Positions 11,753 through 56,165 of a DNA stretch of 64,000 nucleotides are shown in pieces. Position 1 is the stretch's first letter, and each line of letters starts with the position of its first letter. Source of the DNA: Amycolatopsis jiangsuensis (lineage in GTDB: Bacteria; Actinomycetota; Actinomycetes; Mycobacteriales; Pseudonocardiaceae); the NCBI RefSeq assembly GCF_014204865.1, contig NZ_JACHMG010000001.1:558001-622000 (forward strand). The letters run 5' to 3'. Under the pieces are notes generated by a model. It was not told the DNA's origin and made no database searches. It was given only the letters and a program-made list of their open reading frames with translations. Position numbers and translations under genes: made by a program.

Positions 11753-11858
11753 ATCCACACCTTCTCCAGACGGCCCGACGTCGGCCTGCGCCGAACGGCC
11801 CCGTAGGATGGAGAGCCGGTCCTATAGCGGACCGCCCGTGAGAATTCAAGAGTTTTCG

Positions 11859-14800
11859 ATGGCAGGAGGCCAGGTGTCGGAGTTCGGTCGACGGGACTCA
11901 GCGGATGATGGGTCCGGACGGTCGGCTCGCCGCGACCAGGACTCCCGCGGCAGCCGGTCCGACGCGCCCCGGGGAGACCGGCGCGGCGCGAAACAGGACC
12001 GCGGCGGACGCGACAGCAGTCACCAGGGACGGCCACGGCGGGATGACCGGGGTGCCCGTGGCGCCGGCGGCTACGCCGGCCGTCCCGGCCGCGGCGACGG
12101 CCCCCGGGACAACCGCGGTTACGCCGGTAAACGCGACGACGACCGCCGCGGCAACGACTACCGCTCCAGCGGGCGACCGCAGGGCAAATCCGCCTACGGC
12201 GATCGCTCCACACGCCGCTGGGAAGACCGTCCGAACTCGCGCGACAATGACCGTGGCGACCGTCGCGACCGGCCGAACTTCCGCGACGATGACCGTCGCG
12301 GTGGTGCCACCCGACGTGATGGCGGCTCCCGCGGCGACGACCGACGGGACTATCGCGGTGACGCCCGCGGCACCGGGGACCGTGACTCCCGTGGTTTCCG
12401 CGGCTCCGGCGGGTTCCGCGACCAGCGGAATGACCGCGGGGGCAACGATTTTCGTGGCGGCCGGCGGGACGACCGCGCGGGCAGCGGGTACCGCGGGAGC
12501 AACGGGTTCAGCGACGATCGGCGGAATGACCGTGGTCCGAACGATTCCCGTGGCGATCGGCGGGACGACCGTGGGGGCGACGGGTTCCGCCAGGGGCAGC
12601 GTGATGATCGTGCGTCCCGTGGATTCAATGGTGGTCGCGGCGACGACCGGGGACCGGGTGGGTTTCGCGGGGAGCGGCGTGACGATCGAGGATCGGGCCG
12701 GTTCCGTGACCAGCAGGGTGATCGCGGGCCCGGTGGTGCCCGTGGCGATCGGCGGGACGACCGCGGGGGCGGTGGGTTCCGCCAGGACCGGCGTGATGAC
12801 CGTGGCTTCGGTGGCGACCGCCGAGAAGACCGTGGATCCCGAGATTTCCGCGGCTCCGGCGGGTACCGCGGGGATCGCCGGGACGATCGTGGCTCCGGTG
12901 GGTTCCGCGACCGGCAGGACGATCGCGGGCCCGGCGGGTACCGCGGGGAGCGTTCCGGGTCCGGTGGGGGTGGCTTCCGTTCCGGGAATCGGGACGACCG
13001 TGGATTCCGCAAGGATGACCGTCGGCCGTCAAGGGATCGCGACAGCGGTGCGCGGCCGGACCGTGGATTCCGCAAGGACGAAAGTGGTTTCCGGAAGGAC
13101 CGAGCCGGTGGTGGCTTCCGCGGTGAGCGAAGCGACGGCGGATTCCGCGACCGGCAGGACGACCGCGGTGGTTCGGGCGACCGGCGGGACCGCGGGGACG
13201 GATTCCGGGATCGGCCGGGTTCCGGTCGTGGATTCCGGGACCAGGAACAGGGTCAGCGCCGGGATCGGCAGGACGACCGTGGTGGGTTCCGCGAGGACAG
13301 CCGTACCGGCAGTGGATTCCGGAATGAGAGCGACGTTCGCGACGAACGTGCGGCCCAGGACGACGGTGCCCGGCTTGACGCAGGAGCGGGCGAGGCCGCT
13401 CAACGCGGCGAGTCGGCCGACCGGGCAGTGCAGCCGAGCGGCGCGACACCGGTAGACGACGCGGAAAGCGCCACGCGCGAAGGCGAAACGGCCGCAGCTG
13501 CAGGCCACGGCCAGGACCGCGACAACCGCGATGACAGGGCCGACGTCAGCAGCGACGACCGACGTGTGGACGAGAACCGCGACGACGAGAACGGTGGCGA
13601 CCAGGGCGGTTTCGGCCAGGGCCGTGGGGACCGGGGTGGTGACGAACGGGGCCGTGGCGAACGGGACCGTGACGGCCAGGACCTTGACGACCGGGACCGT
13701 GGCGAACGGGACCGTGACGGCCAGGACCTTGACGACCGGGACCGTGGCGAACGGGACCGTGACGGCCAGGACCTTGACGACCGGGACCGTGACGACCGGG
13801 ACCTTGACGACCGGGACCGTGACGGCCAGGACCTTGACGACCGGGACCGTGACGAGCAGGGCCGTAACGAGCAGGGCCGCGATGACCGAGGCCGTGACGA
13901 GCGGGACCAGCATGACCGGGGCGGTGACGAGCAGGGCAGTGCCGACAGCGACCGTGCCGACAGCGACCGTGCCGACCGGGGCCGTTACGGGCAGGGCCGT
14001 GACGAACGGGATCGCGGCGAGCAGGGCCGTGATGAGCAGGGCCGCGATGACCGAGGCCGTGACGTTCGGAGCAGTGCCGACCGAGGCCGTGACGAGCGGG
14101 GCCGTGACGACCGAGGCCGCGACGACCGAGGCCGTGACCGCGAGAGCCGCGACGGCCAGGGCCGCGACGACCGAGGTCGTGGCGGCCGGGGTCGCGACGA
14201 TGCTCGTGGACGGCGGGAGGATCGTGCGCCGCGGGATGGGCGTGGGGCTCGGGAGAGCCGTGCAGCCGGGCGTGGGCCGGGGGAGCGTCGGGGCTCGCGG
14301 GACGGGATGGACGACGCGGCTTTGGCGCGGGAGCTGCTCTCTGCTCCGGAGCTGCCCGAGGACGTCGAGTTCTCCGATCTCGACGAGGAGGTCCGGCGGG
14401 AGCTGCGGACGTTGCCGAAGGCTCTGGCCGAGACCGTCGGGAAGCACCTCGCGGCCGCGGGCGGGCTCGTCGACAGCGATACCGAGGCCGCGCTCGAGCA
14501 TGCCAGGTATGCCAAGACGAAGGCGTCGCGCGTGCCGATCGTGCGGGAGGCCCTGGGACTCGTCGCCTACCACGCGGGGAACTGGCAGGAGGCGCTGTCG
14601 GAGCTTCGCGCCGTGCGGCGGATGACCCGCAGCGACGAGCACATCGCGGTGATCGCCGACGCCGAACGCGCTCTCGGACGGCCGGAGCGGGCGCTCGACC
14701 TGGCCAAGGAGACCGACAAGGAACGGCTCACCAAGGCCACCCGCGTCGAGCTGGCGATCGTCGCGGCCGGTGCGCGGCGGGACCTCGGGCAGCTGGATGC

Positions 14801-15005
14801 TGCCGTCGTGTCGCTGCAGGGGCCGGACCTCGACCCGAAGCGGCGTGACCCGTGGAGTCCGCGGCTGTTCTACGCGTACGCGGACAACCTCCAGGCGGCG
14901 GGACGCGCCGAAGAAGCTGTGCGCTGGTTCCTCAACGCTGCCGAAGCCGACGCCGAAGGGGAGACCGACGCCGCCGAGCGGGCTTCGGAACTCGCGGATG
15001 AGTGA
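11859..15005 (+). CDS. TPR protein with an ~800-residue RGG/RDD-rich disordered N-terminus
   Basis: About 1048 residues in two parts. Residues 1 to about 816 are almost entirely low complexity: first RGG/RDDRGxxGFRxxRRDDRG units, then RDRDGQDLDDRDRGE-type acidic/basic repeats. From the Met at 14307 (residue 817) a folded alpha-helical domain follows with TPR-like helix pairs (ALEHARYAKTKAS, AGNWQEALSELRAV, LGRPERALDLA, AGRAEEAVRWFLNAAE). The C-terminal domain alone matches the size and position of M. tuberculosis Rv1691. The start is uncertain: ATG 11859 follows CAAGAG, but GTG 11874 follows AGGAGG at short spacing. GTG 11838 and ATG 11808 are further upstream, the last overlapping a candidate -10 (TAGGAT, 11804-11809). 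The ATG of the HAD gene overlaps its stop. An RNA-binding or condensate-forming role is only inferred from composition. Confidence 0.85.
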   Translation: MAGGQVSEFGRRDSADDGSGRSARRDQDSRGSRSDAPRGDRRGAKQDRGGRDSSHQGRPRRDDRGARGAGGYAGRPGRGDGPRDNRGYAGKRDDDRRGNDYRSSGRPQGKSAYGDRSTRRWEDRPNSRDNDRGDRRDRPNFRDDDRRGGATRRDGGSRGDDRRDYRGDARGTGDRDSRGFRGSGGFRDQRNDRGGNDFRGGRRDDRAGSGYRGSNGFSDDRRNDRGPNDSRGDRRDDRGGDGFRQGQRDDRASRGFNGGRGDDRGPGGFRGERRDDRGSGRFRDQQGDRGPGGARGDRRDDRGGGGFRQDRRDDRGFGGDRREDRGSRDFRGSGGYRGDRRDDRGSGGFRDRQDDRGPGGYRGERSGSGGGGFRSGNRDDRGFRKDDRRPSRDRDSGARPDRGFRKDESGFRKDRAGGGFRGERSDGGFRDRQDDRGGSGDRRDRGDGFRDRPGSGRGFRDQEQGQRRDRQDDRGGFREDSRTGSGFRNESDVRDERAAQDDGARLDAGAGEAAQRGESADRAVQPSGATPVDDAESATREGETAAAAGHGQDRDNRDDRADVSSDDRRVDENRDDENGGDQGGFGQGRGDRGGDERGRGERDRDGQDLDDRDRGERDRDGQDLDDRDRGERDRDGQDLDDRDRDDRDLDDRDRDGQDLDDRDRDEQGRNEQGRDDRGRDERDQHDRGGDEQGSADSDRADSDRADRGRYGQGRDERDRGEQGRDEQGRDDRGRDVRSSADRGRDERGRDDRGRDDRGRDRESRDGQGRDDRGRGGRGRDDARGRREDRAPRDGRGARESRAAGRGPGERRGSRDGMDDAALARELLSAPELPEDVEFSDLDEEVRRELRTLPKALAETVGKHLAAAGGLVDSDTEAALEHARYAKTKASRVPIVREALGLVAYHAGNWQEALSELRAVRRMTRSDEHIAVIADAERALGRPERALDLAKETDKERLTKATRVELAIVAAGARRDLGQLDAAVVSLQGPDLDPKRRDPWSPRLFYAYADNLQAAGRAEEAVRWFLNAAEADAEGETDAAERASELADE
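13654..13788 (+). repeat. three 45-bp direct repeats inside the TPR gene
   Basis: Copies begin at 13654, 13699 and 13744, each starting GTGGCGAACGGGACCGTGAC and encoding a 15-residue GERDRDGQDLDDRDR unit. Diverged half-units continue to about 13860 and looser GRDDRGRDE-type repeats to about 14180. The period is a multiple of three, so copy-number change would not shift the frame. Confidence 0.9.
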
Positions 15006-45606: not shown

Positions 45607-45624
45607 GCTCGCGAAAGGTGAGTG

Positions 45625-45708
45625 ATGGGCTTGCGCGCCCAGCGTACGACCCTGCCCGCCCCCGTCCGGAAACCCGGAGCCGCCCGGCCCGCCGGCGGCC
45701 TCCGGTGA
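45625..45708 (+). CDS. 27-residue leader ORF overlapping the NRPS start
   Basis: The ATG at 45625 follows AAAGG (45614-45618) with a 6-base spacing, the best Shine-Dalgarno placement in this region. The frame encodes 27 residues beginning MGLRAQRTTLPAPVRKPG and ends at TGA 45706-45708, overlapping GTG 45705 of the synthetase in a GTGA arrangement. Translational coupling is the likely effect. Basic and proline-rich; no homology recognised. Alternatively, the synthetase starts at GTG 45618 and this frame is not used. Confidence 0.5.
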   Translation: MGLRAQRTTLPAPVRKPGAARPAGGLR

Positions 45709-48700
45709 CGCTGACCGCTGATTCCGGCAGCACCGAGCTGGCCCGCGCGGTCGAAGCCGCGCTCGCACCGGCGCTGTTCCGCACCGAGTCCGCCGTTGTC
45801 CGTCGCACGCTGCTCGACGTGCTCACGACCACGGCCGAACGGCACCCGAACGCCCCGGCGCTCGACGACGGCGTCAGCACGCTGAGCTACCGGCGGCTCC
45901 TGGAGGAGATCGAGGACTACGCGCGCCGGCTCCGCGAGCACGGGGTGGGCCTCGGCGACCGCGTCGGCGTCCGGATCTCCTCCGGCACAGCCGAGCTGTA
46001 CGTGGCGATCCTGGCCACGTTGTCGGTCGGCGCGGCCTACGTGCCGGTCGACGCCGACGACCCGGACGAGCGTGCCGAGCTGGTCTTCGGCGAGGCGGGC
46101 GTCGCCGCGGTCGTCACCGACGGCACCATCACCGCGCACGGCACGCCGGGCGGCCGCACCGGGCGCCCCGGCCCGGCCGACGACGCGTGGATCATCTTCA
46201 CCTCCGGCTCCACCGGAAAACCCAAGGGCGTCGCCGTCACGCATGGTTCAGCGGCCGCGTTCGTGGACGCCGAGGCGCAGCTGTTCCTCACCGACGAGCC
46301 GATCGGGCCGGGCGACCGGGTGCTGGCCGGACTGAGCGTGGCCTTCGACGCCTCCTGCGAGGAAATGTGGCTGGCCTGGCGGCACGGCGCCTGCTTGGCG
46401 CCCGCGCCACGTGCGCTGGTGCGCACGGGGGTGGACCTCGGCCCGTGGCTGGTCGCGCAGCGCATCACCGTGGTGTCGACGGTGCCGACGCTCGCCGCGC
46501 TGTGGCCCGCGGACGCGCTGGAAGACGTGCGGCTGCTCATCTTCGGCGGCGAAGCGTGCCCGCCGGAGCTGGCCGAACGCGTCGCCGTCGAGGGCCGCGA
46601 GGTCTGGAACACCTACGGCCCGACCGAGGCCACTGTGGTCGCCTGCGCCGCGCAGTTGACCGGCGAAGGTCCGGTGCGTATCGGCCTTCCGCTGGCGGGC
46701 TGGCAGCTGGCGGTGGTGAACGACGACGGTGAGCTGGTCGCCATGGGCGAGACCGGCGAGCTGGTCATCGGCGGGGCCGGGCTCGCCCGCTACCTCGACG
46801 AGGAGAAGGACGCGCAGAAGTTCGCACCGCTGCCGGCACTCGGCTGGGAGCGCGCGTACCGCAGCGGGGACATGGTCCGCGCGGAGACCGAGGGCCTGCT
46901 GTTCCTCGGCCGGCTCGACGAGCAGGTCAAGCTCGGTGGCCGCCGCATCGAGCTCGGTGAGGTCGACGCGGCGCTCCAGGCGCTGCCCGGCGTGCTCGGT
47001 GGCGCGGCCGCGATCCGTCGTACCAAGGCGGGCAACCAGGTGCTGGTCGGCTATCTCGTACCCGAGGACGGCCGGTCGCTGGACCTCGACGACGCGGCCA
47101 CCCGGCTGCGCGCGCAGCTGCCCGCCGCGCTCGTACCGCTGCTGGCCGTGGTCGCCGGCCTGCCGACCCGGACCTCGGGCAAGGTGGACCGGGCCGCGCT
47201 GCCCTGGCCACTGTCCACTGTGGACGCGAGTGCGGCCGGCCTGTCCCCCACCGAGGCGTGGCTGGCCGAGGGCTGGGGCGAGATCCTCGGCGTCTCGGTG
47301 AGCACCGCGCGCGCCGACTTCTTCACTCACGGCGGCGGCAGCCTCACCGCGGCGCAGCTGATCGCCCGCATCCGGACCCGGCACCCCGACGTGTCGGTCA
47401 GCGACATCTACCAGCACCCGAAGCTCGGTGACCTGGCCGCGAAACTCGACGCGCTGTCGGTCCGGGAGACCGAACGCCGCGACATCGCGCCGGTCCCGCG
47501 GCGCGCGGGCGTACTGCAGAGCCTGCTGATGGTCCCGCTGATGGGGCTGGTCGGGCTGCGCTGGGCGACGCTCGCCGGGGCGGGTTCGAACGTGCTGGCG
47601 CTGCTCGGGTTTTCCTGGGCGCCCACGCTGAACTGGGCGTGGCTGGTGCTCGCCTGGCTGGTGCTGTTCAGTCCGGCCGGCCGGATCGCGATCGCCGCGG
47701 GCGGTGCCCGGATACTGCTGTCCGGCGTGCGCCCGGGCAGCTACCCGCGGGGTGGCAGTGTCCACTTGCGACTGTGGACCGCGGAGAAGCTGGCGGGGTT
47801 CAGCGGTGCGGACAGTGTGGCCGGCGCGTCGTGGATGACCACGTACGCGAAGGCACTCGGTGCGCGCATCGGCAGGGACGTGGACCTTCACTCGCCGCCG
47901 CCGGTCACCGGGTTCCTCAAGCTCGGCCGCGGGGCCGCGGTGGAACCGGAAGCCGACCTGTCCGGGCACTGGGTCGACGGCGACCTGGTGCACATCGGCA
48001 AGGTCCGGATCGGTGCCGAGGCACGAGTCGGCGCACGCAGCACACTCTTTCCCGGCGCGCGGGTCGGCAAAGGCGCGGAGATCGCCGCGGGTTCGACCGT
48101 GCGTGGTGCGGTCCCGGCCGGGCAGCGCTGGGCCGGTTCGCCCGCGGTCCGCGTGGGCAAGGACGTCAAGGACGCGCTGAAATGGCCGGCGAGCCGTCCG
48201 CCGCGTTCGCGGTTCTGGGCCGCGGTCTACGGCGCGACGTCGCTGACGCTCGGGCTGCTGCCCGGAATCGCCGCGCTGGCCGGAGTCGCGGTGCTGGGCT
48301 CCGCGATCGCCGGCGCGCCGACGCTCGCCGACGCCGGGCTTCGCGCGCTCGCCGCGGTGCCGCTCGCGACCCTCGCTTACTTCCTCGCGTACGCGCTGCT
48401 CGTGCTGATCGGAGTCCGGTCGCTCGCGGCCGGCCTGGTCGAGGGCTACCACCCGGTGCACGGCCGGGTCGCGTGGCAGGTCTGGGCCACCGAACGGCTC
48501 ATGGGCATGGCACGGGAAGGTCTGTTCCCGCTGTACGCCAGCCTGTTCACCCCGGTGTGGCTGCGGCTGCTCGGGGCGAAGGTGGGCCGGGGCGTCGAGG
48601 CGTCCACCGTCCTCGCACTGCCCAAGATGACCAAAGTGGACAGTGGTGCGTTCCTCGCCGACGACACCATGGTGGCCACCTACGAACTGGGCCACGGCTG

Positions 48701-49595
48701 GCTGCACGTGGCGCCCGCGCGGATCGGCAAACAGGCCTTCCTCGGCAATTCCGGGATGACCGCGCCGGGCCGTTCGGTGCCCAAACGCGGACTGGTCGGG
48801 GTGCTCTCGTCCACGCCGGCCAAGGCGAAGAAGGGCTCGTCCTACCTCGGGATGCCGCCGCTGCCGGTGCGCAGGGCGGTCGGTGACGCGGACACCAGCC
48901 GCACCTACACGCCGCCGCTGCACCTCAAGGCCGCGCGGGCGCTGGTGGAGCTGTGCCGGATCGTGCCGGTGATGTGCGGGGTCGCGCTGACCGTCGGCGT
49001 CGCGGTGACGCTGCTGGCGCTGGCCGCCGAGGCCGGGTTCCTGGTGGCCGCGCTGCTGGCCGGTCCGGTGCTGCTGGCGGCGGGGATCGTCGCCGCGCTC
49101 ACCGCGACCGCGGCGAAGTGGCTGCTGGTCGGGAAGTTCCGCGAGGTCGACCATCCGCTGTGGAGTTCCTTCGTGTGGCGCAACGAACTGGCCGACACGT
49201 TCGTGGAGACGTTCGCCGTGCCGTGGCTGGTCGGCTCGCTCGGCGGCACGCCGCTGCTGAACGCCTGGCTGCGCACGATGGGCGCGCGAATCGGCCGGGG
49301 CGTGTGGCTCGAGACGTACTGGCTGCCGGAGTCCGACCTGGTCTCCCTCGGCGACGGCGCGACGGTCAACCGCGGCTGCGTGGTCCAGACCCATCTGTTC
49401 CACGATCGGATCATGACCATGTCCCGGGTCGAGGTGGCCGAGGGCGCGACGCTGGGCCAGCACGGCATCGTGCTGCCCGGCGCGAGTATCGGCGCGCGCA
49501 CCACGGTGGGCCCGGGTTCGCTGGTGACCCGGGGCGACGCGGTGCCGGCGGACACCCGCTGGCTGGGCAACCCGATCTCGGTCTGGCGCGGGTAG
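45705..49595 (+). CDS. Pls/PosA-type single-module NRPS (amino-acid homopolymer synthetase)
   Basis: About 1296 residues from GTG 45705; GTG 45618 would add 29. Adenylation domain about 35-510: FTSGSTGKPKGVAVTH, FDASCEEMW, NTYGPTEATVVAC, YRSGDMV, GRRIELGE. Carrier domain with Ser546 in HGGGSLTAAQ. Then membrane segments alternating with three left-handed beta-helix (hexapeptide) regions, the last ending VTRGDAVPADTRWLGNP. This is the layout of epsilon-poly-L-lysine synthetase and related enzymes, in which membrane-linked tandem domains join one amino acid repeatedly. By manual alignment to GrsA I read the specificity residues as D-A-E-S-I-G-T-V-V-K, close to a known lysine code. The product, lysine or another diamino acid polymer, is inferred. 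An M1 peptidase gene follows. Confidence 0.88.
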   Translation: MTLTADSGSTELARAVEAALAPALFRTESAVVRRTLLDVLTTTAERHPNAPALDDGVSTLSYRRLLEEIEDYARRLREHGVGLGDRVGVRISSGTAELYVAILATLSVGAAYVPVDADDPDERAELVFGEAGVAAVVTDGTITAHGTPGGRTGRPGPADDAWIIFTSGSTGKPKGVAVTHGSAAAFVDAEAQLFLTDEPIGPGDRVLAGLSVAFDASCEEMWLAWRHGACLAPAPRALVRTGVDLGPWLVAQRITVVSTVPTLAALWPADALEDVRLLIFGGEACPPELAERVAVEGREVWNTYGPTEATVVACAAQLTGEGPVRIGLPLAGWQLAVVNDDGELVAMGETGELVIGGAGLARYLDEEKDAQKFAPLPALGWERAYRSGDMVRAETEGLLFLGRLDEQVKLGGRRIELGEVDAALQALPGVLGGAAAIRRTKAGNQVLVGYLVPEDGRSLDLDDAATRLRAQLPAALVPLLAVVAGLPTRTSGKVDRAALPWPLSTVDASAAGLSPTEAWLAEGWGEILGVSVSTARADFFTHGGGSLTAAQLIARIRTRHPDVSVSDIYQHPKLGDLAAKLDALSVRETERRDIAPVPRRAGVLQSLLMVPLMGLVGLRWATLAGAGSNVLALLGFSWAPTLNWAWLVLAWLVLFSPAGRIAIAAGGARILLSGVRPGSYPRGGSVHLRLWTAEKLAGFSGADSVAGASWMTTYAKALGARIGRDVDLHSPPPVTGFLKLGRGAAVEPEADLSGHWVDGDLVHIGKVRIGAEARVGARSTLFPGARVGKGAEIAAGSTVRGAVPAGQRWAGSPAVRVGKDVKDALKWPASRPPRSRFWAAVYGATSLTLGLLPGIAALAGVAVLGSAIAGAPTLADAGLRALAAVPLATLAYFLAYALLVLIGVRSLAAGLVEGYHPVHGRVAWQVWATERLMGMAREGLFPLYASLFTPVWLRLLGAKVGRGVEASTVLALPKMTKVDSGAFLADDTMVATYELGHGWLHVAPARIGKQAFLGNSGMTAPGRSVPKRGLVGVLSSTPAKAKKGSSYLGMPPLPVRRAVGDADTSRTYTPPLHLKAARALVELCRIVPVMCGVALTVGVAVTLLALAAEAGFLVAALLAGPVLLAAGIVAALTATAAKWLLVGKFREVDHPLWSSFVWRNELADTFVETFAVPWLVGSLGGTPLLNAWLRTMGARIGRGVWLETYWLPESDLVSLGDGATVNRGCVVQTHLFHDRIMTMSRVEVAEGATLGQHGIVLPGASIGARTTVGPGSLVTRGDAVPADTRWLGNPISVWRG

Positions 49596-49686
49596 CAGGC
49601 CACAGTCCACGGCGAGCGTTGCGGTCCCGGCGCGGGCGCGCGATGCTGATGACGAGCACAGCAGGCGGAAGCGGGGTTCTTCTCGG

Positions 49687-51030
49687 GTGAGTACGAAGGC
49701 AGCCGCACCGGCGCCCGGTGCGGAAACCTCCGGCGACACGTACCTCCCGGACCACGGCAACGGCGGGTACCGGGTCCGGCACTACGATCTGGACCTCGAC
49801 TACCGCATCGGCCCCAACCGGCTCGCCGCCACCGCGGTGCTCACCTGCGAGGCCACTCAGGCGCTGTCGCGGTTCTCGCTGGACTTCGGCGAGTTCCGGG
49901 TGGGCCGGGTGCTGGTCGAGGGCCGGGCCGCCAAGTACCTGCGGCGTGGCCTGAAGCTGCAGGTCCGTCCCGCGCGCCCGATCCCGGCCGGTGCGGTGTT
50001 CCGGGTGGAGGTCCGCTACTCCGGAAACCCGAAGCCGGTGCGAAGCCGCTGGGGCGACATCGGCTGGGACGAGCTGACCGACGGCGCGCTGGTGGCGAGC
50101 CAGCCGGTCGGCGCCCCCTCCTGGTTCCCGTGCAACGACCACCCCGCCGACAAGGCGTCCTACCGGGTCGCGGTGGCCGCCTCGTCGCCGTACCTGGTGG
50201 TGGTGACGGGAAACCTGATGTCGCGCCATCAGGCGGCGAGTACCACGAGATGGGTCTACGAGCGGGCGGAGCCGACCGCGGCGTACCTGATGAGCGTGCA
50301 GATCGGCCGGTACGACGAAATCGAGCTGGCCGGCGAACTGTCCTCGCCGGGGAGCGGGGTCGTGCAGCGGGCCGCCGTGCCGCCCCGGCTGCGGCGGCAG
50401 TTCATCCGCGATTTCGGGCGGCAGGGCCGGATGATGGCCGCGCTGCAAGGATGGTTCGGGCCTTATCCGTTCGGCGAGTACGTGGTCGTGGTGACCGACG
50501 ACGAACTGGACGATCCGATCGAAGCGCAGGGGATGTCGATCTTCGGGGCCAACCACGTGGACGGTCACCGCACGCACGAGCGACTGGTGGTCCACGAGCT
50601 GGCCCACCAGTGGTTCGGCAACAGCCTGACCGTGGCCGACTGGCGGCACATCTGGCTCAACGAGGGGTTCGCGACCTACACCGAATGGCTGTGGTCGGAG
50701 GAATCCGGCGGAGAGTCCACGGCGTCGCAAGCCCGCGGCTGGTACGACCACGTCCGTGCCGAACCGGCCGACGTGGCGATCGGCGATCCCGGCGCGGCAC
50801 GCATGTTCGACGAACGCGTGTACAAGCGCGGTGCGCTCACCCTGCACGCGTTGCGCGGTGAAATCGGGGACGCGGCGTTCTTCGCGGTGGTGAAAGCGTG
50901 GGCGGCGCAGTACCGGCACGCAGTGGTGCGTACCGAGGATTTCGTCGCGCTGGCGGAGAAGCAGGCGGGGCGTTCGCTGGCGGAGTTCTTCGACCGCTGG
51001 CTCGGGAAGTTCCCGCTGCCGCGGCTGTGA
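49687..51030 (+). CDS. M1-family zinc metallopeptidase
   Basis: 447 residues, the short actinobacterial form containing the N-terminal beta-saddle and catalytic domain but not the long C-terminal domain of PepN. The zinc site is HELAHQW (H303, E304, H307) with NEGFATY supplying E326 after 18 residues. The substrate N-terminus loop reads GAMEN in classical M1 enzymes; here the matching region is QGMSIFG, a clear variation. No signal peptide, so cytosolic. It lies 91 bases after the Pls-like gene; M1 peptidases are known polylysine-degrading enzymes in Streptomyces, so a link to that polymer is plausible but inferred. Confidence 0.9.
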   Translation: MSTKAAAPAPGAETSGDTYLPDHGNGGYRVRHYDLDLDYRIGPNRLAATAVLTCEATQALSRFSLDFGEFRVGRVLVEGRAAKYLRRGLKLQVRPARPIPAGAVFRVEVRYSGNPKPVRSRWGDIGWDELTDGALVASQPVGAPSWFPCNDHPADKASYRVAVAASSPYLVVVTGNLMSRHQAASTTRWVYERAEPTAAYLMSVQIGRYDEIELAGELSSPGSGVVQRAAVPPRLRRQFIRDFGRQGRMMAALQGWFGPYPFGEYVVVVTDDELDDPIEAQGMSIFGANHVDGHRTHERLVVHELAHQWFGNSLTVADWRHIWLNEGFATYTEWLWSEESGGESTASQARGWYDHVRAEPADVAIGDPGAARMFDERVYKRGALTLHALRGEIGDAAFFAVVKAWAAQYRHAVVRTEDFVALAEKQAGRSLAEFFDRWLGKFPLPRL

Positions 51031-52095: not shown

Positions 52096-52920
52096 TCACA
52101 GCGGGTTGAACGCCCCCAGCGGCGCGGTGCAGAACGGTCCGCCGACGCATTCCGCGGCGATCCCGGACGGTCCGGGCTGTCCGGCCAGCTGCTCGGCGAA
52201 GACCTCGGCGTCGTCGTGTGAGGTGTAGCCCAGCGCTTCGGCTTCGGCGAGGGAGTAGATCCGCCGCGTGTTGTCCGAGACGCCCCAGATCAGCCGGTAA
52301 CCGGGGGAGGGCGCGCTGAGGCACGCCTCGAACAGTCGCGCACCGTCGTCCGGGGACAGCCAGGTGACCAGTCCACGCGGACCGAGCGGCAGCGGGGTCT
52401 CGAAGCACGAGCCGATCCGCACCACGATCACGTCCATGCCGAAACGCGAGGCGTACAGGCTGCCCAGGGCCTCGATGGCGGCTTTGCTGACGCCGTAGTA
52501 GGTGTCGGGCCGCGGGCTCGAATCGGCGGGCAGCCCGCTCTCGCCGGCGTCGGCGATGCGGCGGAACCCGACCGCGTGGTTGCTCGAGGCGAGGATCACC
52601 CGCTTGATCCCGGCCTCGCGGGCTGCCTCGAGCACGGTGTGCGTGCCATTGATGTTCACGTCGAGGGTGGCTTCCCACGAGTTCTCCCGGCTGTGCCCGC
52701 CGAGGTGGATCAGCGCGTCCGCGCCCTCGCACGCCGCGGCCATCGTCGCGGCGTCGGTGACCGAGCCGGTCAGGATTTCGACCGCTTCGCCGGGCTCAGC
52801 CGCGGGCTGCCCGGCGAGGTCCAACAGGCGCAGCACCCGGCCGGGTTTGCGCAGCCGCGGCCGCATCAGGGTGCCGACGACGCCGGCCGCTCCGGTGATC
52901 AGCACACGCTGGTCTGGCAT
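52096..52920 (-). CDS. udh: uronate dehydrogenase (NAD-dependent SDR)
   Basis: 274 residues of the extended SDR/epimerase class. VLITGAAGVVGTLMRPRLR at the N-terminus binds NAD; LIHLGGHSRENSWEATLDVN, ILASSNHAVGF and the catalytic YYGVSK (Tyr-x-x-x-Lys) follow. The segments RIGSCFETPLPLGPRGLVTW and LSPDDGARLFEACLSA are characteristic of uronate dehydrogenases, which oxidise glucuronate or galacturonate to the aldarolactone with NAD+. It lies downstream of iclR on the same strand and opposite the kdgD operon, completing a uronate oxidation pathway. Confidence 0.88.
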   Translation of the reverse strand: MPDQRVLITGAAGVVGTLMRPRLRKPGRVLRLLDLAGQPAAEPGEAVEILTGSVTDAATMAAACEGADALIHLGGHSRENSWEATLDVNINGTHTVLEAAREAGIKRVILASSNHAVGFRRIADAGESGLPADSSPRPDTYYGVSKAAIEALGSLYASRFGMDVIVVRIGSCFETPLPLGPRGLVTWLSPDDGARLFEACLSAPSPGYRLIWGVSDNTRRIYSLAEAEALGYTSHDDAEVFAEQLAGQPGPSGIAAECVGGPFCTAPLGAFNPL

Positions 52921-53009
52921 GGGGGAGTCCTCTCGCGAACAGAGCTGGACTCGTGCGTGGCGAGGCCGGTCGGAACCGGCGTCGCCACGCACGAGGCGGG
53001 GAAGGGGGG

Positions 53010-53837
53010 TCAGCGGATGCCGGCCCGGCGCAGCTGCTGGCCGAGTTCGGCGGTGGTTTCGGCCAGCAGCGTGCCCACGCGTTCGGCGTCGGCATCGCTC
53101 ACCTGGCCGACCGGCATCGAGCAGCTCATCGCGTCGGTGCCGGGAATGCGGTACGGGATCACCGCGGCGACGCAGCGCACGCCCGGGGTGCCTTCTTCGA
53201 ACTCGGCCGCGTATCCGCGGTCACGCGTGCGTGCGAGGTCGGCGTGCAGTGCCTCGCGGGAGGTGATGGTGTGCGAAGTGAGCGGCGAGAGCTCGGCCGG
53301 CACGAGGTCTTCGATCTCCTCGTGCGTCAGCTCGGCCAGCAGCGCCTTGCCCAGCGCGGTGGCGTGCGCCGGCAGCGTGCGCCCGACCCGGGAGACCAGA
53401 TGGGTGGAGTGCTGTGATTCGCGGGTTTCCAGGTACACGACCTCGGTGCCGTTGCGGCGGGCGAAGTGCGCGGTGAACCCGGTTTTCTCGCGGATGCGCT
53501 CCAGCGCCTCGGTGGCGAACGGCACGATCGCGTCGCGGTCCAGGTAGGCGGTCCCGCAGATCAGCGCCCGCACGCCGAGCCGGTACCGCGCCGAGTTCGC
53601 GTCCGCTTCCAGCCAGCCCGCATCCAGCAGGGTGCGCAGCAGTCCGTGCAGACTGGACCGTGGGAACCCGGTGCGGGCGTGCAGGTCCGACAGGGAGAGC
53701 CACACGTCGTTCGCGGCGAAGGTCTCGAGCAGGTCGATGGTGCGCCGGGCGGACTTCACGCCCGACGCGCCCGGCTCGCCACCCGCGGCGTGCTCCGGCG
53801 TGCCAGGGGTGCCTGCGGCGGCGAGTTTCTGCGCCAT
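53010..53837 (-). CDS. IclR-family transcriptional regulator
   Basis: 275 residues. The N-terminal winged helix spans about 25-90 (RTIDLLETFAANDVWLSLSD, RTGFPRSSLHGLLRTLLDAGW). The C-terminal IclR ligand domain includes LPAHATALGKALLAELTHEE and VAAVIPYRIPG. It is divergent from the kdgD operon and upstream of udh, so it is the likely pathway regulator, responding to a uronate or aldarate intermediate. Confidence 0.92.
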   Translation of the reverse strand: MAQKLAAAGTPGTPEHAAGGEPGASGVKSARRTIDLLETFAANDVWLSLSDLHARTGFPRSSLHGLLRTLLDAGWLEADANSARYRLGVRALICGTAYLDRDAIVPFATEALERIREKTGFTAHFARRNGTEVVYLETRESQHSTHLVSRVGRTLPAHATALGKALLAELTHEEIEDLVPAELSPLTSHTITSREALHADLARTRDRGYAAEFEEGTPGVRCVAAVIPYRIPGTDAMSCSMPVGQVSDADAERVGTLLAETTAELGQQLRRAGIR

Positions 53838-53859
53838 GTGCGTCCTCCGACCGGGGGCG

Positions 53860-53920
53860 TTGACTTGTGAGTCCGGCCATATTAGCGTCCCGAACTGCGT
53901 TCTTGTGGATGAATATGGTC
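53860..53920 (+). promoter_or_regulatory. candidate promoter and operator of the kdgD operon
   Basis: TTGACT (53860-53865) and TAGCGT (53883-53888) are spaced by 17 bases and direct transcription toward kdgD. An inverted repeat, GGCCATATT (53875-53883) and AATATGGTC (53912-53920), overlaps the -10 and start region and could be the IclR operator. Both are pattern-based proposals. Confidence 0.5.
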
Positions 53921-53967
53921 ACGATAACAGACTCCATTCAAGAATGTGAACATTGGAGCAGAAACTG

Positions 53968-54909
53968 ATGGCACAGACCGAGATCGCGCTGGACGGCCTG
54001 CTGGCGTTCCCGCTGACGCCGTTCGCCGACGACCTCGAGGTCGACCTCGACGGGTTCGCGGAGAACGTGGAAGGCCACATCGCCGCCGGTGCCGGCGCGC
54101 TGTTCGTCGCGTGCGGCACCGGTGAGTTCAGCTCGCTTTCGGCCGACGAGGTCGCCGCTGCGCTGGCGAAGGCGCGTGAGGTGGCCGCGGGCCGCGTCCC
54201 GGTGTGGGTCGGGGCCGGCGGTGGCGCCGCGAACGCGCGCGCGGGCGTGGCCGCGGCGCAGGCCGGCGGTGCGGACGGAGTGCTCCTGCTGCCGCCGTAT
54301 CTGGTCAAGGGCCCGCAGGCCGGGCTCGCCGAGTACGTGCGCTTCGCGGTCGGCGACAGCACCGTGCCGGTGGTGGTCTACCACCGCGGCACCGGTGTGT
54401 TCAGCGCTCCGACGGCGGCAAAGCTGCTGGACATCCCGTCCGTCGCCGGGATCAAGGACGGCTACGGCGACGTCGACACGATGACCCGCATCGTCACCAC
54501 CATCCGCGCGCTGGGCACGAGGCGTTCGGAGGAGTTCCTGTTCTTCAACGGGTTGCCGACCGCTGAAGTGTCCGCGAAGGCGTACGCGGCGATCGGCGTG
54601 GCGCGCTATTCCTCGGCTGTGCACTGCTTCGCGCCCGAGATCGCGCACCGTTTCCACCGTGCCCTCGGTGAAGGCGACGAGGCCGCGATGGACGCGCTGC
54701 TCGCCGGGTTCTACGTCCCGCTGGTGGCGTTGCGCGACGAAACACCCGGCTTCGCGGTGTCGCTGGTGAAGGCGGCCGCCCGGTTGCGCGGCGACAAGGT
54801 CGGCACGGTACGGCCGCCGTTGGTAGAGCCGACTGCCGAGCAGATCGACCGGCTGGGGACGATCGTCGAAGACGGCTTCGCAGTGCTGAAGCGGATCGAG
54901 GCCCGTTGA
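53968..54909 (+). CDS. kdgD: 5-dehydro-4-deoxyglucarate dehydratase
   Basis: 313 residues of the DapA/N-acetylneuraminate lyase (TIM barrel) family. FPLTPFADDLEVDLDGF at the N-terminus, GTGEFSSLSADEV (GTGE instead of the GTTGE of DapA), the conserved Tyr in VVVYHRGTGVF, and the Schiff-base Lys in AGIKDGYGD near residue 184. It dehydrates and decarboxylates 5-dehydro-4-deoxyglucarate to 2-oxoglutarate semialdehyde. ATG 53968 is used; TTG 53953 would add five residues. The stop overlaps the glucarate dehydratase ATG. Confidence 0.92.
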   Translation: MAQTEIALDGLLAFPLTPFADDLEVDLDGFAENVEGHIAAGAGALFVACGTGEFSSLSADEVAAALAKAREVAAGRVPVWVGAGGGAANARAGVAAAQAGGADGVLLLPPYLVKGPQAGLAEYVRFAVGDSTVPVVVYHRGTGVFSAPTAAKLLDIPSVAGIKDGYGDVDTMTRIVTTIRALGTRRSEEFLFFNGLPTAEVSAKAYAAIGVARYSSAVHCFAPEIAHRFHRALGEGDEAAMDALLAGFYVPLVALRDETPGFAVSLVKAAARLRGDKVGTVRPPLVEPTAEQIDRLGTIVEDGFAVLKRIEAR

Positions 54910-56165
54910 TGAAGATCCGGGACGTGGTGCTCACCCCGGTCGCGTTCGCGGACCCGCCGCTGCTGAACGTGATGGGTGTGCACGAGCCGTACGCGTTGCG
55001 CAGCGTGGTGCAGCTGGTCTGCGAAGACGGCGTGGTCGGGCTGGGCGAGTCCTACGGCGACGAGGCGTTCCTCGGCGAGGTGCGCAAGGTCGTGTCGGAG
55101 CTGGCCGGGCACGACGTCTTCGACCTGCCGGGGCTCAAGCGCGTCGTCGCGCGCACGCTGGCCGGCGCCGTGCTGACCGACGAGCACGGGCTGATCGGCG
55201 GATTCTCCATCCGCAAGACGATCGCGAGCGTGTACTCGCTGTTCGAAGTGGCCTGCCTGGACGCGCAGGGGCACGCGCTCGGCCGTCCGGTGGTGGATCT
55301 GCTCGGCGGCAAGGCGCGTGACGCGGTCGAGTTCTCCGCCTACCTGTTCTACAAGTACGGCGCGCACCTCGGCGCGGACGAGGACAGCTGGGGCGAGGTC
55401 GTCACCCCGGAGGCGCTCGTCGGCGAGGCGGCGCGGATGGTGGGGGAGTACGGGTTCCGCTCGATCAAGCTCAAGGGTGGTGTGTTCGAGCCGGAGCAGG
55501 AGATCGCGGGCATCCGTGCCCTCGCCGAGGCGTTCCCGGGCCATCCGTTGCGGATCGACCCGAACGCCGCGTGGACGCCGGAGACGAGCGCGCGCGTGGC
55601 CGGGGAACTCGAAGGCGTGCTGGAGTACCTGGAGGACCCGACGCCGGGGATCGAGGGCATGGCACGCGTGGCGGAGCGGGCGAGCATGCCGCTGGCCACC
55701 AACATGTGCGTGGTGAACTTCGGGGACATCGAGCCGGCCTTCCGCGCGCGGGCGATCGGCGTGCTGCTGTCCGACCACCACTTCTGGGGCGGGATGCGGG
55801 ACACGCAGGCACTGTCGGTGACCTGCGAGAGCTTCGGCATCGGGCTGTCCATGCACTCCAACAGCCACCTGGGCATCAGCCTCGCCGCGATGGTGCACGT
55901 GGCCGCCGCGACGCCGCATCTGACCTACGCCTGTGATACGCATTGGCCGTGGAAGACCGCAGACGTGATCACGCCGGGCGCACTGGAGTTCACCGGCGGT
56001 GCCGTGCCGGTGCCGGACAAGCCGGGCCTAGGCATCGAGCTGGACCAGGACTCGCTCGCCCGCGCGCACGAGGACTACGTCCGATGTGGACTGACCAAAC
56101 GGGACGACGTGACCTACATGCGCCGGTACCGGCCGGGATTCGAGCCGAACACCGCGAGGTGGTGA
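54909..56165 (+). CDS. glucarate dehydratase-type enolase
   Basis: 418 residues of the enolase superfamily, mandelate-racemase subgroup. KLKGG near residue 194 has the KxK base; RIDPNAAW, EDPTPG and NMCVVNF carry metal ligands; SDHHFWGG and SMHSNSHLGIS near residue 317 have the catalytic His-Asp region and the glucarate-dehydratase HSNSHLG signature. It dehydrates D-glucarate to 5-dehydro-4-deoxyglucarate, the substrate of KdgD. Length is slightly below the ~440 typical of E. coli GudD. It overlaps kdgD by one base. Confidence 0.92.
   Translation: MKIRDVVLTPVAFADPPLLNVMGVHEPYALRSVVQLVCEDGVVGLGESYGDEAFLGEVRKVVSELAGHDVFDLPGLKRVVARTLAGAVLTDEHGLIGGFSIRKTIASVYSLFEVACLDAQGHALGRPVVDLLGGKARDAVEFSAYLFYKYGAHLGADEDSWGEVVTPEALVGEAARMVGEYGFRSIKLKGGVFEPEQEIAGIRALAEAFPGHPLRIDPNAAWTPETSARVAGELEGVLEYLEDPTPGIEGMARVAERASMPLATNMCVVNFGDIEPAFRARAIGVLLSDHHFWGGMRDTQALSVTCESFGIGLSMHSNSHLGISLAAMVHVAAATPHLTYACDTHWPWKTADVITPGALEFTGGAVPVPDKPGLGIELDQDSLARAHEDYVRCGLTKRDDVTYMRRYRPGFEPNTARW

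Follow-up and report, generated by a model that had tools for sequence, protein, structure and literature searches.

Cyanophycin is served by a synthetase and by its own intracellular peptidase. Here we describe a synthetase and peptidase gene pair from the actinobacterium Amycolatopsis jiangsuensis that is best read as serving another polymer, epsilon-poly-L-lysine (epsilon-PL). The pair lies in a stretch of 64,000 nucleotides (nt; contig NZ_JACHMG010000001.1, positions 558,001 to 622,000), hereafter the window, of an 8.05 Mb genome in two contigs (G000), and consists of pls, encoding a predicted epsilon-PL synthetase (Pls), and a gene for an M1 zinc peptidase. The closest described system is the pls-pldII operon of Streptomyces albulus, in which pldII is reported to overlap pls by 4 bp (PMC4361855). 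PldII is placed outside the membrane in two accounts (PMC9223678, PMC9205021), the former of which calls it pivotal to producer self-protection. Corynebacterium variabile, like Amycolatopsis an actinobacterium outside Streptomyces though of another genus, is reported to carry a Pls and peptidase gene pair whose product was shown heterologously: S. coelicolor cultures with its Pls contained 26-35-mer epsilon-PL, while that report detected neither epsilon-PL nor Pls protein in the native host, and recombinant C. glutamicum with the same Pls had detectable Pls protein but no detected polymer (PMC8117764). The delta-poly-ornithine synthetase PosA shares the family architecture and differs in its substrate code, DMEHNGTVSK, and in being described as a single-gene operon (PMC10522769). 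An epsilon-PL cluster, labelled 'epsilon-poly-lysine, 100%' by antiSMASH, is reported in every strain studied in PMC11004387.

Since the S. albulus operon is published and epsilon-PL clusters have been annotated in Amycolatopsis, a pair of this kind is no novelty, nor is its occurrence in the genus; a first, sequence-only reading of this DNA had singled it out, but the idea that it is unusual is not supported. The window shares with S. albulus the synthetase architecture, the lysine code and a peptidase gene directly downstream on the same strand, and differs in having a gap of 91 nt where the 4-bp overlap is reported (PMC4361855). What comparison adds is that the pair exists as two sister lineages, recognised from sequence. 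In the lineage of the window the peptidase appears to stay inside the cell, as judged from its N-terminus.

Pls is encoded at 45705..49595 on the + strand, as 1296 amino acids (aa) from a GTG start at 45705; an alternative in-frame GTG lies at 45618. It is assigned to the Pls/PosA family by TIGR02353 (721 bits over residues 603-1291, against a cut-off of 423), by the identity of its adenylation (A) domain to that of S. albulus Pls and by its place in a tree. Pfam finds only AMP-binding, PP-binding and hexapeptide families: the A domain (PF00501, residues 41-362, 45825..46790, + strand; the core Lys that ends the substrate code falls beyond the Pfam stretch) and a carrier (T) domain (PF00550, residues 519-579, 47259..47441, + strand), with no condensation or thioesterase domain in the scan. 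The C-terminal part (47511..49592, + strand) is read from an AlphaFold model, Foldseek and its charge pattern as three repeats of a transmembrane hairpin and a left-handed beta-helix domain. The arrangement of A domain, T domain, membrane part and triple hexapeptide domain that had been read by eye is thus borne out by Pfam, by TIGR02353 and by the predicted model. Among named species, the nearest Pls proteins are those of A. ultiminotia (91%) and A. jejuensis (89%).

Among solved structures 7wew comes nearest: it is an epsilon-PL synthase A domain, from an enzyme that we take to be that of S. albulus, and the window Pls is 67.5% identical to it over 492 aa. Code positions were set in the 7wew alignment by PheA landmarks. 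The resulting ten-residue code, DAESIGTVVK, is identical to that of S. albulus Pls at all ten positions, and the same residues had been picked out manually in the sequence-only reading. That reading compared the code with a known lysine code one or two changes away; no known code is closer than that of the characterised S. albulus Pls, which it equals. Wider comparisons used the best 80 of at least 592 confirmed Pls matches, here called related loci, or 81 loci with the window added. DAESIGTVVK is common to all 81 and to 20 Streptomyces loci. Position two has been proposed as a chain-length residue, with Ala for lysine, Met for ornithine and Phe for diaminopropionic or diaminobutyric acid (Dap/Dab) (PMC10522769); it is Ala in the window.

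The M1 peptidase gene (49687..51030, + strand, 447 aa, GTG start at 49687) follows the Pls stop by 91 nt on the same strand, the position and Pfam match (PF01433) agreeing with what had been noted from the sequence. By tblastn, an M1 homolog of 47-79% identity lies downstream of Pls in all 80 related loci; because these are the best 80 of at least 592, the figure applies to the closest relatives. The gap between the two genes is mostly 250 nt or less, reaching about 640-690 nt in two loci (L069, L076). With a homolog in every one of these loci, the adjacency is not chance. In a sample of 80 Amycolatopsis genomes, 79 have a Pls ortholog of at least 76% identity, counting one split across two contigs (G037), and M1 lies behind it in 79 of 79. 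The gene der (EngA GTPase, NF002828; 43901..45478, + strand in the window), which we place outside the module, stands upstream on the same strand in the same 79 genomes at gaps of 210-2654 nt, so that the order der-pls-M1 holds in 79/80. The remaining genome (G062) lacks pls and M1; because der is missing there too, this is probably an assembly gap rather than gene loss.

The identification of the peptidase rests on PF01433, signal scans, its tree position and a model of mean predicted local distance difference test score (pLDDT) 92.4 (m04b81935c975). The zinc site HELAH...E (HExxH-18-E, 50593..50664, + strand) is present in 81/81 loci, as are the zinc ligands, the Glu and the conserved Tyr. 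A two-domain M1 enzyme of Deinococcus radiodurans (6a8z) matches the fold almost from end to end (template-modelling score 0.85-0.90), with sequence identity of 29-30%. In place of the GAMEN loop the window has P-I-E-A-Q (50515..50529, + strand), with P, E and A in 81/81 loci. The loop is altered, as first noticed, with its Glu kept, but this is no mark of distinction. That it might signal an unusual enzyme was rejected because all three groups of small M1 peptidases compared (67/67, exported ones included) lack GAMEN and retain the Glu. The residue after that Glu is fixed as Ala in the window lineage (39/39, and 81/81 of the wider set) and is Asn in 14/14 of the S. albulus type. Separately, small M1 peptidases with an export signal and no GAMEN occur in seven sampled genomes (L131-L144), one of them (L131) in the window's own genome.

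Sixteen Streptomyces loci whose Pls A domains are 73-93% identical to 7wew served as stand-ins for the S. albulus type, and comparisons with PldII were made through these near relatives rather than its own sequence. Since pls is followed by an M1 gene in these relatives, we infer that PldII is an M1 peptidase. The M1 set comprises 14 of the 16, leaving out L123 and L125, for which no M1 was found in the stretch fetched. In at least 7/14 a listed M1 start gives a 4-nt overlap with the end of pls, like that reported for pldII (PMC4361855); none does in L116 and L117, and for the other five the start codons are incompletely recorded.

Export signals were scored by a plain hydropathy rule made for this analysis. 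A twin-arginine (Tat)-type signal, S/T-R-R-x followed by a hydrophobic run, is present in 14/14 of the S. albulus type, and as a positive control 14/14 other M1 paralogs from seven genomes scored positive. By contrast, none was found by the rule in the window M1, which is 41-44% identical to the S. albulus-type proteins, nor anywhere in its lineage (0/81, of which 20 were unscoreable, their N-termini being short or without Lys/Arg). A laxer test, blind to start codons and to charge, covers those 20 and likewise gave 0/81. Under the first rule, four further Streptomyces loci of the lineage (L127-L130) gave 0/4. Two of the 81 (L035, L053) have the bare Tat pattern, with no hydrophobic run behind it.

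Trees of 67 M1 and 76 Pls proteins were built by a quick method with Shimodaira-Hasegawa-like approximate likelihood ratio test (SH-aLRT) support only. In the M1 tree the window lineage forms one clade (98) and the S. albulus type another (100), and the two stand together apart from the other M1 proteins (100). With these others as outgroup, the window M1 belongs to the sister clade of the S. albulus type and is not within it. The Pls tree was built with no mixture model, and a long branch was flagged at its outgroup; it has a parallel split, with clades at 100 and 100 joined at 96. Export of the outgroup M1 proteins may point to a loss of the signal in the window lineage, the trees leaving gain versus loss unsettled. 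Both Pls types occur in single Streptomyces genomes (G228, G325, G337). G228 and G337 have both M1 types and G325 the window type only, its S. albulus-type Pls copy being L123, one of the two loci left out above.

The orientation of the synthetase was considered through its C-terminal model (m0f9f99c76a0a; mean pLDDT 81.7), which has helices and a beta-helix three times over. Three tandem acyltransferase-like domains with six transmembrane helices fit the predicted model and the hydropathy. Fold matches are weak, Foldseek giving none at E <=0.001 and hexapeptide acyltransferases only above it. Across 32 Pls sequences the hairpin-internal loops (about 7-18 residues) carry on average 0.19, 0.78 and 0.22 Lys/Arg, while five of the six inner flanks (17-27 residues) carry 3.06-5.06 and the sixth, of fewer than four residues before the first transmembrane helix, carries 0. 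With few positive charges within hairpins and more on the flanks, the A, T and all three C-terminal domains should face the cytosol.

Because the code equals that of a characterised Pls, Pls adjoins the S. albulus clade and the pair recurs in 80/80 loci, these sequences are best read as a lysine homopolymer synthetase with an M1 peptidase that cuts the polymer. Pls would activate L-lysine with ATP and load it onto its own carrier domain; the beta-helix domains, anchored in the membrane, would then link lysines via the epsilon amine. Lacking a recognisable export signal, the M1 enzyme would act in the cytosol, on the synthesis side, on polymer or short chains retained in the cell. Of the suggestion that it trims the polymer or protects against it, polymer cutting is the better-supported part; that self-protection outside the cell is the obvious role is not supported, no export signal having been found. 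The fixed chromosomal place across Amycolatopsis favours a standing cell function over an occasional secreted antibiotic. By analogy with cyanophycin, whose proteins are unrelated and whose polymer is another, this could be internal turnover, length control or a lysine or cation reserve, the intracellular make-and-recycle logic being the same. We therefore consider it reasonably probable that the locus is a conserved make-and-recycle module for epsilon-PL with internal turnover. The two lineages would then differ in the side of the membrane on which the breakdown half works: an outside place fits protection from secreted polymer, an inside one turnover or length control of retained polymer.

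Several points weigh against such a module. Conservation is patchy beyond Amycolatopsis: in a family sample that includes eight Amycolatopsis, 87/160 genomes (25/46 genera) pass E 1e-290, and the 7wew A domain as query at E 1e-150 reaches 125/295 Streptomyces genomes, both Pls types counted together. Three family-sample Pls matches (G402, G385, G528) have an inner stop. The hydropathy rule cannot exclude unconventional export. Finally, C. variabile Pls, whose gene likewise has a peptidase partner, is reported to have made epsilon-PL in S. coelicolor cultures (PMC8117764), so that Pls enzymes in this broader sense are able to deliver polymer to the outside.

The strongest alternative is a locus of the S. 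albulus kind for a secreted epsilon-PL antibiotic, whose M1 would leave the cell along some route that our rule does not recognise and serve self-protection outside. The synthetase code and family are the same as in S. albulus, where PldII is described as outside the membrane and pivotal for self-protection (PMC9223678). Nevertheless, a signal-like stretch is absent from all 81 window-lineage proteins and present in every member of both comparison sets, the two lineages coexist within single genomes and the site beside der is fixed, so that we judge this unlikely. A different product, such as oligomers of small size, a lysine polymer with branches or modifications, or a product of another diamino acid, is suggested by the few residues reported to govern substrate choice in the family (PMC10522769) and by the fact that sequence does not reveal chain length; the ten-for-ten code match to a Pls of known product, and the Phe reported at position two of Dap/Dab synthetases (PMC10522769), make it improbable. 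Less probable again is a general aminopeptidase merely adjoining pls. The two-domain Deinococcus-type fold, solved in amino-acid and tripeptide complexes, would suit one, but the adjacency (80/80 and 79/79) and the parallel split in both trees do not. A silent relic kept by chance, for which the reported lack of detected epsilon-PL and Pls protein in C. variabile (PMC8117764) and the three inner stops could be cited, is the least probable of all, as none of the Pls matches listed from the 80 Amycolatopsis genomes has an inner stop and the M1 zinc ligands, Glu and Tyr are kept in 81/81 loci.

If the module does turn over epsilon-PL internally, a lineage present in 79/80 genomes of the genus with an apparently cytosolic degrader makes the polymer worth seeking inside cells and not in the supernatant only. 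This may also bear on the lack of detected polymer in recombinant C. glutamicum expressing C. variabile Pls (PMC8117764), and an antiSMASH 'epsilon-poly-lysine, 100%' label as in PMC11004387 need not imply a secreted antibiotic. The branch with an apparently cytosolic degrader is widespread and points away from such a job. Our literature search, which missed most subscription papers, found no published account of a cytosolic pls-linked peptidase. A bolder proposal, which we hold only tentatively, is that most actinobacterial pls-type loci serve an old intracellular epsilon-PL cycle rather than an antibiotic, the S. albulus type being a form with outside degradation that allows secretion; such a cycle, if true, would be to a cationic polymer what cyanophycin or polyphosphate metabolism is to theirs.

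M1 pairing was rejected as a mark of lysine-code Pls generally. Among 20 hand-picked distant Pls relatives from the genus, the code is DAES[IV]GTVVK in seven, and none of the 20 has an M1 gene within the approximately 5 kb fetched on each side. Extra Pls copies in some other Amycolatopsis genomes (L086-L092), 50-57% identical to the window Pls, have the lysine code (one change in L090) and no M1 neighbour, and branch outside both paired lineages. Outside the window, the same genome encodes a second Pls-family synthetase (L085, G000:C1:1030814-1034701) with the code DFEYLGTVTK, Dap/Dab-like by its Phe, and with no M1 in the stretch fetched. Two loci (L100, L101) have the code DSECYGGVTK, as in a Bdellovibrionales protein of PMC10522769.

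A search beyond the Pls-M1 span revealed no wider gene cluster: the most widely recurring neighbours, response-regulator-like, are shared by 6 of 31 genera. Upstream of pls in the window are cmk, an acyltransferase gene and der. A 1065-aa open reading frame at 11808-15005 has a sub-threshold Pfam match to tetratricopeptide repeats. Near the locus, at 52096-56165, is a set resembling sugar-acid catabolism genes, encoding an NAD-dependent epimerase-like protein, an IclR regulator, a 5-dehydro-4-deoxyglucarate-dehydratase-like protein and a glucarate-dehydratase-like enolase.

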